A stretch of 44,917 nucleotides of DNA, taken from assembly GCA_947453415.1 (NCBI GenBank), contig CANGGG010000017.1, forward strand, positions 1 to 44,917, given 5' to 3'. Position 1 is the stretch's first letter. Each line of letters begins with the position of its first letter. The notes below the pieces were generated by a model that searched no databases, was not told the DNA's origin, and was given only the letters and a program-made list of their open reading frames with translations. Both the position numbers and the translations under genes were made by a program. Below are positions 13,240-15,196 of the stretch, piece by piece. This DNA is from Bacteroidota bacterium (GTDB taxonomy: Bacteria > Bacteroidota > Bacteroidia > UKL13-3).

Positions 13240-13293
13240 CCTCTGGCTATTGGCACAAAAAACTATCAACTGACAACTAACAACTAACAACTA
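13238..13293. repeat. Iterated-word spacer before paaA
   Basis: 13238-13254 (AGCCTCTGGCTATTGGC) matches the reverse complement of the pgk-fumC repeat at 14 of 17 positions. It starts within the TetR stop codon. 13262-13293 then iterates CAACTGACAACTAACAACTAACAAC with a period near 7. No promoter is evident, so paaA probably depends on the TetR promoter. Confidence 0.5.
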
Positions 13294-13297
13294 TATT

Positions 13298-14287
13298 ATG
13301 TACGGAAACGCTTACATTGATCCAAACGAAAAGCCATTATCAATTTTAGATGGCGAAGACCCAATTAAATTAGCTGAATTTGAAGCACGAATAGATCGTG
13401 GTGAAAAAATAGAACCTAAAGATTGGATGCCTAAAGAATACAGGAAACAATTAATTAGAATGATAGAACAACATGCGCATTCTGAAATTATTGGTGCATT
13501 GCCAGAAGGCACATGGATTACTCGCGCTCCAGGTTTTAAACGTAAGTTAGCTTTAATGGCTAAAGTACAAGACGAAGTAGGACACGCACAATTGCTTTAC
13601 AGTGCTGCCGAAACTTTGGGAAAAAGCCGTGAAGCCATGATCAACGATTTGATTACTGGTAAATCAAAATACTCAAATGTTTTTAATTATCCTGCTTTAA
13701 CTTGGGCCGATTCATGTGTAATAGCTTGGTTAATTGATGCGGGTGCAATTATTAATCAAGTGGCAAATGCCAAAGGTAGTTACGGTCCATACGGACGTGC
13801 TTTAGACAGAATTTGTACTGAAGAAAGTTTCCATTTAAAATATGGTCATCACAATGTGGTAACTTTAGCAACTGGAACACCTTTTCAACGCCAAATGGTA
13901 CAAGAAGCTTTAACCCGTTGGTGGCCGCCAATTATGCATTTTTTTGGCCCTAGCGATAAAATTTCGAACCATACAACTATATTGATGAAATGGAAAGTTA
14001 AAATGGCAACGAACGATGACATGCGTCAACAGTTTTTAAACATGTATGTTCCTAAAATTTGGGATTTAGGATTGGTACTTCCCGATGCCAATTTAAAGAA
14101 AAACGAAGAGACAAAATTATGGGAATATACCGAACCAGATTGGGACGAATTTAAACGTGTTATCAATGGTGGAGGTCCTTGTAATGCAGAACGTTTGGCA
14201 GTTCGCAGAATGGCAGAAGAAAAAGGAAGATGGGTTAGAGCTGCTTTATTGAATAAATCAGAAAAATATGTAACTCCTTTAGCCTAG
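13298..14287 (+). CDS. paaA: 1,2-phenylacetyl-CoA epoxidase, catalytic subunit PaaA
   Basis: PaaA is the diiron subunit that, with PaaC, forms the core epoxidising the ring of phenylacetyl-CoA. The ferritin-like diiron ligands are visible: Glu63, the first ExxH at Glu93-His96 ('QDEVGHAQ') and the second ExxH at Glu176-His179 ('TEESFH'). 'WITRAPGF' and '[13 protein letters not shown]' are family hallmarks. The 329 residues are normal. It is the first catalytic gene after the TetR regulator and is separated from paaB by an S23-type gene, which is unusual because paaA and paaB normally adjoin. Confidence 0.96.
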
Positions 14288-14295
14288 GGAATTGC

Positions 14296-14370
14296 AAAGA
14301 TTACAAAAATTACAATGTTGGAAAGATTGAAGAATTACTAGGAATCAATTTTTTAATTTTTGTAATCTTT
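14296..14370. repeat. Perfect 17-bp inverted repeat between paaA and the S23-type gene
   Basis: Bases 14296-14312 (AAAGATTACAAAAATTA) are the exact reverse complement of 14354-14370. The 41-base loop contains a further related word (GAAAGATTGAAG). The same vocabulary, TTGTAATCTTTCAA, recurs at about 14779-14815 on the other side of the S23-type gene and more loosely at 15203-15235 between paaB and paaC. A long hairpin could form in the paa mRNA here. Confidence 0.75.
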
Positions 14371-14392
14371 TCAACTTTGAAATATAAATAGA

Positions 14393-14770
14393 ATGGCAAA
14401 AATAGAGACTTTTGAAGACTTAGAAATTTGGAATGAGGCTATTGATTTATATGTAGAAGTTTATTCAAAATGTGAAAACAGTAGTCTTAAAAATGATTTT
14501 TCTGCAAAAGACCAATTGAAAAGAGCTACACTTTCGATTTCAAATAATATAGCTGAAGGTTTTGAGTATGAAAACAATCTTCAATTTATGCGATTTTTGA
14601 GATATTCAAAAGGATCGGCAGGAGAAGTTAGAAGCATGATTCATGCGTTTTACAGAACTAAACAAATAGATGAAGCAACACATAAAAAACTAATAGAAGA
14701 TGTAATTTTAATTTCCAAAAGCATAAAAAACTTTTTAAAATATTTAAGTAATCATAAACCTATAAAATAA
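14393..14770 (+). CDS. Four-helix-bundle protein, S23/23S rRNA intervening-sequence family
   Basis: The 125-residue protein has the family pattern 'LEIWNEAIDLYVEVY', 'RATLSISNNIAEGFE' and 'FLRYSKGSAGEVRSMI' (the SI.NIAEG and F...L..SKGSAGE boxes), and predicts as four helices. Members form pentameric bundles. They occur inside 23S rRNA intervening sequences, as free-standing genes, and as the Avd subunit of diversity-generating retroelements; the cellular role of free-standing ones is unknown. Here it interrupts paaA-paaB in the same orientation, with repeat-rich spacers on both sides, suggesting it arrived as a small cassette. No reverse transcriptase or template repeat is present. Base composition resembles its neighbours. 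Confidence 0.9.
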   Translation: MAKIETFEDLEIWNEAIDLYVEVYSKCENSSLKNDFSAKDQLKRATLSISNNIAEGFEYENNLQFMRFLRYSKGSAGEVRSMIHAFYRTKQIDEATHKKLIEDVILISKSIKNFLKYLSNHKPIK

Positions 14771-14778
14771 TTTTTCAA

Positions 14779-14818
14779 CCTTGTAATCTTTCAATTTTTC
14801 AAAACCTTGTAATAACAA
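14779..14818. repeat. TTGTAATCTTTCAA-word spacer before paaB
   Basis: The gap after the S23-type gene contains CCTTGTAATCTTTCAA and then CCTTGTAATAAC, the same words as the 17-bp inverted repeat on its other side, as a direct copy of the right arm. This supports paired flanking elements around the inserted gene. Confidence 0.5.
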
Positions 14819-14821
14819 CAA

Positions 14822-15196
14822 ATGATAAATTCACTAGACCCTCGCATAGCGAGAGAAAAAATAAATGAAGACAATACCATTGCTCCATTAACTGAAATGG
14901 ACAATTGGGAAACTTACGAAGTTTTTCACCAAAAAAAACGTGGCGAACAACATGAACATGTAGGAATAGTTCATGCTCCAAATAACGAAATGGCTTTACT
15001 TTTTGGTAAGGAACAATATGGCCGAAGAGGAATAAGCGTAAATATTTGGGTGGTAAAAACCAGCAATGTTTTTGCATCGGATTACGATGATGCCGATATT
15101 TTTGAAACAGTTCCAGACAAGCAATACCGTGAAGCAGGTGGCTATAAAGTAATGGAAATGATTAATAAATATAAGAAGGAAAACAAAGGATTATAA
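14822..15196 (+). CDS. paaB: 1,2-phenylacetyl-CoA epoxidase, subunit PaaB
   Basis: The core 'NWETYEVFHQKKRGEQHEHVGIVHAPNNEMALLFGKEQYGRRG' region (about 27-75) is the PaaB family pattern, including the FxQKKRGxxHxHVG motif. PaaB is a small structural subunit that bridges the PaaAC heterodimers into the larger complex. At 124 residues it is longer than the roughly 95 of proteobacterial PaaB, with an extra N-terminal stretch and a lysine-rich C-terminus. I believe this is typical of Bacteroidota. It is 50 bases upstream of paaC. Confidence 0.95.
   Translation: MINSLDPRIAREKINEDNTIAPLTEMDNWETYEVFHQKKRGEQHEHVGIVHAPNNEMALLFGKEQYGRRGISVNIWVVKTSNVFASDYDDADIFETVPDKQYREAGGYKVMEMINKYKKENKGL

Follow-up and report, generated by a model that had tools for sequence, protein, structure and literature searches.

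A small gene of the S23 / four helix bundle family, flanked on both sides by short repeated words, lies between paaA and paaB in a 44,917-nt stretch of Bacteroidota DNA (hereafter the window; contig CANGGG010000017.1 of assembly GCA_947453415.1), raising the question of what role such a gene has at an operon junction and how it spreads. The window derives from contig C17 of a 2.9-Mb Bacteroidia genome, labelled G000 below. Comparisons with other genomes suggested, with a probability that we put at roughly 0.6, that the S23 gene together with its pair of word arms constitutes a single exchangeable cassette, the protein-operon counterpart of the S23-bearing intervening sequences (IVSs) of 23S rRNA. 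Such cassettes are gained, lost and replaced whilst their flanking genes stay nearly identical, and genes of another family, GxxExxY (PF13366), are enclosed in the same manner, on occasion at a junction where a sister genome has S23.

Anatomy of the paaA-paaB cassette

In the window, 534 nt extend from the paaA stop to the paaB start, occupied by an S23 gene of 125 residues that the first-pass annotation had placed there and that was confirmed at 14393-14770. Its open reading frame (ORF) is enclosed by the two arms of one inverted repeat (outer left, 14292-14342; right, 14771-14814), and a third word array (14349-14379) lies directly 5' of its start codon. The first-pass annotation had described a perfect 17-bp inverted repeat on one side of the gene and matching words on the other. 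Both are present: a repeat search returned AAAGATTACAAAAATTA at 14296-14312 with its complement at 14354-14370, nested in a 29-nt pair that is 86% complementary, and the TTGTAATCTTTCAA word is located at 14781-14794. The layout so described was nonetheless incomplete, in that the words belong to two arms of one inverted repeat plus the third array. The features are as follows, the host genes and a related array outside the cassette being given last.

14288..14821, + strand: whole cassette, the full 534-nt stretch from the paaA stop codon to the paaB start codon
14292..14342, + strand: outer left arm, word array AAAGATTACAAAAATTACAATGTTGGAAAGATTGAAGAATTAC, reverse-complementary to the right arm
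14349..14379, + strand: inner left array in inverse orientation, pairing with the outer left arm to give the perfect 17-bp repeat
14393..14770, + strand: S23 / four helix bundle protein gene, 125 aa, PF05635 and TIGR02436 above cut-off
14771..14814, + strand: right arm TTTTTCAACCTTGTAATCTTTCAATTTTTCAAAACCTTGTAATA, inverted complement of the outer left arm
13298..14287, + strand: paaA, upstream host gene, TIGR02156 above cut-off
14822..15196, + strand: paaB, downstream host gene, PF06243 above cut-off
13260..13297, + strand: solo heptad array CAACTGACAACTAACAACTAACAACTAT directly before paaA, without an S23 gene (lag-7 scan, 23/28 matches), related material outside the cassette

The outer left and right arms of the window gave an intergenic-only alignment score of 33 (the same arms aligned over 34 columns in L024), the predicted RNA fold of the element is closed by these two arms, and its words are nearer 9 nt than 7 nt in length. 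The window genome encodes five S23 family members, and its S23 loci have word arrays on both sides that differ from locus to locus and are mutually reverse-complementary. One of the five genes (L005, G000:C12:35038-35328) has an in-frame TGA, yet its TTCGAA-word arms are kept.

Across the family, flank complementarity lay far above that of swapped flanks, shuffled sequences and control genes. An arm score was obtained by reverse-complementing the 150 nt upstream of the gene and aligning them locally to the 150 nt downstream; the main set comprised 83 distinct S23 loci drawn from the genus, family and class of the window genome. Own flank pairs had a mean score of 32.3, against 17.2 for pairs swapped between loci, whilst 2000 permutations of the flank pairs gave a mean of 17.40 (standard deviation 0.48) and a maximum of 19.9. 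Own pairs exceeded the 95th percentile of the swaps at 65 of the 83 loci and the 99th percentile at 48, and 54 loci outscored every one of 200 dinucleotide-shuffled copies of their flank. A score above 32 was found for 2.5% of control genes in the window genome, each with a gap on either side, versus 48/83 S23 loci. The effect was retained when only intergenic sequence was aligned (29.4 own, 14.6 swapped). Arm duplex energies averaged -31.0 kcal/mol for own pairs versus -16.3 kcal/mol for swaps, with the own energy falling below the 5th percentile of swaps at only 29 of the 83 loci.

The arms consist of degenerate words in tandem, as a rule heptads (AACTAAG, GTCTATG, TTGCTTA) and sometimes units of 8 or 9 nt. 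The autocorrelation of the flanks peaks at lags 7, 14 and 21, and family-wide the lag-7 peak was 0.41, compared with 0.27 in far flanks. GC skew is +0.32 in the 5' arm, which is rich in G, and -0.21 in the C-rich 3' arm. Ends shared between S23 sites, which the first-pass annotation had envisaged, were not observed: the words are private to each locus and complementary only to that locus's own other flank. Words common to different sites occurred only among close S23 pairs (4/9 versus 0.6%), and over all site pairs S23 sequence and words were uncorrelated (Spearman -0.01, Mantel p 0.60).

The window protein matched PF05635 with 91.7 bits (cut-off 33.8, E 4e-26) and TIGR02436 with 85.9 bits (cut-off 24, E 2e-24). 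An AlphaFold2 model (predicted local distance difference test score, pLDDT, 92) has four helices, and the best Protein Data Bank matches to this model in Foldseek were the S23 family structures 2gsc and 2rld (template modelling score, TM, 0.74-0.84), entries that hold five chains each, followed by Avd (4dwl, TM about 0.74), an RNA-associated accessory protein of diversity-generating retroelements. The median dN/dS (ratio of nonsynonymous to synonymous substitution rates) of S23 orthologues at the same site was 0.09 (22 pairs), indicating purifying selection and hence a functional protein. A defence gene was considered and rejected, S23 having no PADLOC match and GxxExxY only a weak Cas4-like nuclease similarity. 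Phage cargo was likewise rejected, with just 11 S23 loci in 2.9 million viral contigs.

Gain, loss and replacement between relatives

The genes paaA and paaB normally adjoin, as the first-pass annotation had stated: their gap is 7-20 nt in many relatives, and the empty sites extend to genomes as close as G001 (3 nt, with a PaaA 99.7% identical to that of the window), whilst the gap in G018 is 1 nt. The S23 gene is therefore not fixed at this junction. An intermediate arrangement exists in G005, where a gap of 99 nt contains both arms and no ORF. Replacement was evident between G002 and G003, in which the last 120 nt of paaA are 93-97% identical and the first 120 nt of paaB 98-100% identical, whereas the intervening S23 proteins share 46% identity and the words differ. 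The S23 protein of G002 shares 69% identity with its counterpart in G017, a member of another genus, the flanks of which match those of G002 at 57-77% only. Near-identical flanks around unlike S23 genes imply that the contents were replaced sharply at the gap. The earlier suggestion of a small cassette with flanking repeats accordingly stands, inasmuch as the cassette is absent, ORF-less or swapped in close relatives; the transposon-like shared ends that went with it do not, the words being locus-private. No target site duplication was evident when the window was compared with the empty G001 and G018 sites, where gaps are short and diverged.

A comparable exchange was observed at the gap between metH-N and metH-C (host gene names other than paa were assigned by reading the sequences). 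In G000, G001 and G004 the DNA is 95-98% identical downstream and 95-97% identical upstream of this gap, and the respective cassettes are an S23 of type I (GCTAGAGGCC words), an S23 of type II (CTATGGTCC) and a GxxExxY gene (CACAGAGAACAC). A sister clade (G003, G006, G002) has the same three cassettes, and from one clade to the other the divergence of the cassette regions is similar to that of the flanking genes (81-88%), hence the exchange of old alleles is a live alternative to fresh insertion. The pattern at the metH gap (L275, L277 and L280 versus L279, L278 and L281) suggests either a polymorphism common to both clades or ongoing exchange among species. S23 lineages at the same site are also common to different genera. 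Separately, the pntAB-pntB gaps of G005, G006 and G018 (L250, L251, L254) are 89-118 nt long, lack an ORF and have inverted words; these may be emptied cassettes.

Distribution, placement and cargo

A scan of named genomes retrieved 80 S23 loci, 75 of which were testable for arms. Own pairs scored 34.7 against 17.2 for swaps, with 52/75 above the swapped 95th percentile, and 48/73 loci outscored all 200 within-locus shuffles, the safer test for this set because base composition varies between phyla. More than 12 phyla are spanned, including Bacteroidota, Ignavibacteria, Acidobacteria, Armatimonadetes, Verrucomicrobia, Planctomycetota, Patescibacteria, Bipolaricaulis, Caldithrix, Nitrospirae, Elusimicrobia, Chloroflexi (Anaerolineae), Neomarinimicrobiota and others.

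Placement is strongly oriented: among 82 loci with two callable neighbours, S23 genes between co-directional genes were in sense in 73 instances and antisense in one. The host junctions include paaA-paaB, sufB-sufC, sufC-sufD (Flavobacterium; L184, L175), serC-serA, metH-N/metH-C and the pnt operon, and a single genome may harbour several S23 cassettes at unrelated operons. Cassettes extend from the end of the upstream gene, or just inside it, to the next start codon. At the metH site the arms start inside the final host codons and provide the stop codon, such that the MetH-N C-terminus varies with the cassette (L275-L282), the word array supplying its last codons and stop; the G000 protein ends in YEPR-VIASGL-stop, encoded by GCTTCTGGCCTCTAG. 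A four helix bundle gene of Flavobacterium columnare, situated between guanylate kinase and nadD, has been tabulated as a phage element (PMC5524665, Table 5), and may be another such cassette.

The same build was found around other cargo. In the genomes compared, GxxExxY genes had a mean arm score of 34.4 for own pairs and 19.1 for swaps, and 17 of 29 loci outscored all shuffles. Inverted word arrays (CACAGAG, CGCAGATTT, CACATAG) were seen at the GxxExxY loci L324, L325, L328 and 26 more (L305-L334), and some GxxExxY genes occupy exactly the junction where a sister genome has S23. In the pntAA-pntAB gap of G018 (L254), a nucleotidyltransferase-like ORF (IFGSFARDEPNY) takes the place that S23 has in relatives.

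Flank words were not equally frequent in gaps without the gene. Arrays were present in 22 of 474 gaps not adjoining S23 in S23-rich genomes, versus 0 of 252 in S23-poor relatives (Fisher p 1e-4, an indicative value since regions were hand-picked and gaps within one genome are not independent); the gene calls of these background scans were crude longest-ORF calls. In the window genome, arrays without S23 occupied 10 of 242 gaps (window plus 400 kb). Some S23-free arrays are single arrays in operons (nuo), and a few are inverted pairs; in gaps of nuo (NADH dehydrogenase) operons (L164:17756-17868, L373:15568-19618), no S23 gene accompanies the arrays and the one pair of inverted arrays. Unlike the heptad arrays, ORF-less hairpins did not differ in density between S23-rich and S23-poor genomes.

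Known relatives, a possible mechanism and competing explanations

The closest precedent is the 23S rRNA IVS, in which an S23 ORF lies in the loop of a 28-bp terminal stem cut by RNase III (PMC4990558). In Coxiella, tandem heptameric repeats (GACAGAT) adjoin the ORF, which is reported to be decaying; where S23-bearing rRNA inserts come from and what they do is still regarded as unclear (PMC4990558). The operon cassettes resemble the IVSs of Coxiella, Leptospira and others in having a sense S23 ORF within complementary termini, heptads nearby and a patchy distribution. They differ in that they occupy a gap between protein genes instead of a 23S rRNA helix, that the arms are word arrays with a locus-specific vocabulary and several cassettes occur per genome, and that, unlike the Coxiella ORF, the protein is under purifying selection. 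Since the cassettes have the sequence features of the IVS except for its location in rRNA, we read them as the same kind of element.

Other systems share individual traits. Free-standing TIGR02436 / PF05635 proteins (2gsc, 2rld) are of the same family and fold; no description of arms or exchange around their genes was found in literature on the family, arms and heptad repeats, a search that did not cover subscription journals. Avd of the diversity-generating retroelements (DGRs; 4dwl, 8ub7) has the same four-helix fold, although no DGR reverse transcriptase adjoins the window gene (RVT_1 is lacking in the window genome) and no variable/template repeat pair was seen. Miniature inverted-repeat transposable elements (MITEs) and insertion sequences likewise have terminal inverted repeats, presence/absence polymorphism and ORF-less derivatives, whereas the cassette ends are not conserved between copies, placement is sense-only, and neither a transposase nor a target duplication was seen. 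Cyanobacterial short tandem repeats, similar to the cassette arms in this respect, are intergenic repeats of 7 nt. So are the TAACTGA heptamer arrays, which consist of one fixed word, often just before a start codon, and occur in some Bacteroidetes also (PMC4679880). Unlike the cassette arms, TAACTGA arrays are direct with a fixed word, and no S23 link or inverted pairing has been reported for them.

These comparisons suggest how a cassette might operate. The arms and ORF would move as one unit, and the host operon would transcribe the cassette, which is our preferred account of the sense-only placement. The arms may fold as a hairpin, either in RNA or in single-stranded DNA, that carries the ORF in its loop. 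What the S23 protein (probably pentameric, as are 2gsc/2rld and Avd) binds could be this folded shape rather than a fixed sequence, in which case the words would be free to drift. By such binding the protein may help the cassette to enter or persist at operon junctions, with the folded arms acting during its copying or moving. Cassettes may additionally spread by recombination between strains via common host genes.

Several observations weigh against this reading. Most genomes compared are metagenome assemblies, and about a quarter of S23 loci have weak arms or none. At conserved sites, own arms scored 29.2 and cross-orthologue arms 22.6, a moderate gain only, and the predicted RNA fold of the window element was only modestly better than shuffles (z -1.62). 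Arrays without S23 also occur in S23-rich genomes. No transposase or parent element was found for the cassette, and RVT_1 was absent from G000, G003, G006, G009 and G016, leaving no consistent reverse transcriptase. Nor was there an excess of G.U pairs among arm mismatches (91 G.U versus 118 A.C, 101 loci), hence the arms behave as DNA inverted repeats that were made or homogenised together, and lasting selection for RNA pairing in the arms is not supported. A reverse transcriptase acting in trans was rejected, with RVT_1 missing in the window genome and most S23-rich relatives.

An account in which old cassettes, not mobile now, are replaced as alleles when strains recombine homologously via the host genes on either side is possible, if rather doubtful. 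The presence of S23 lineages at the same site across genera agrees with it, and two clades with the same three metH cassettes, diverged like the flanking genes, fit old alleles being passed around. It is at odds with the sharp switch at the gap, where flanks show no donor-like tract (G002 vs G003 against G017), with the words that similar S23s at different sites sometimes have in common, and with the several cassettes at unrelated operons of one genome. We regard as unlikely that the element is a true mRNA IVS, the arms of which would pair in the operon transcript so that RNase III cuts the stem, frees the S23 ORF, splits the message and separates the expression of the flanking genes. Arm mismatches without a G.U excess over A.C, and own duplex energies below the 5th percentile of swaps at no more than 29/83 loci, speak against such a function, despite the strict sense orientation, the favourable mean duplex energy of own arms (-31.0 kcal/mol versus -16.3 kcal/mol for swaps), a window-element fold closed by the arms, and an anatomy shared with the rRNA IVS, for which cutting of the stem by RNase III is published (PMC4990558).

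It is improbable that the S23 gene is simply an accessory gene of the operon, set in intergenic DNA that is AT-rich and prone to repeats, with words that are slippage products unrelated to it. Arrays do occur without S23 (10/242 gaps in the window genome), and S23 is under purifying selection as host genes are; the arms, however, are inverted and locus-matched where control genes have no such match, arrays are confined to S23-rich genomes in the gap comparison (22/474 versus 0/252), and replacement takes the cassette as a unit. A DNA transposon akin to MITEs, bounded by terminal inverted repeats and moved by a transposase in trans with S23 as a passenger, appears more improbable still. The inverted arms decay symmetrically like DNA, and ORF-less arm pairs exist at paaA-paaB (G005) and pntAB-pntB (G005, G006, G018), but the terminal repeats differ at every locus, unlike known transposon ends, the orientation is 73:1 and no target duplication was evident at the short, diverged empty sites. 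Conserved transposon ends were rejected, the ends being locus-private.

Beyond the exchangeable S23 cassette itself, we tentatively propose that "word-arm cassettes" could be a widespread, hitherto undescribed class of very small exchangeable elements, each with one small gene (S23, GxxExxY, perhaps others) within locus-private, arm-matched inverted arrays, placed in sense at operon junctions in many phyla. The rRNA IVS would then be a special case, and S23 a sequence-independent hairpin binder that makes or maintains the arms. Words that differ from locus to locus but match from arm to arm form an unusual pattern, for which transposition with conserved ends gives no explanation. S23 / four helix bundle genes that stand alone are frequent, and a common anatomy with the rRNA inserts is now indicated; this shared anatomy, together with the swapping between close relatives, makes both the role of S23 and the spread of the inserts testable. 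Intergenic heptads and 'extra' small genes in suf, ser, met, pnt and paa operons may accordingly be read as cassettes rather than noise.
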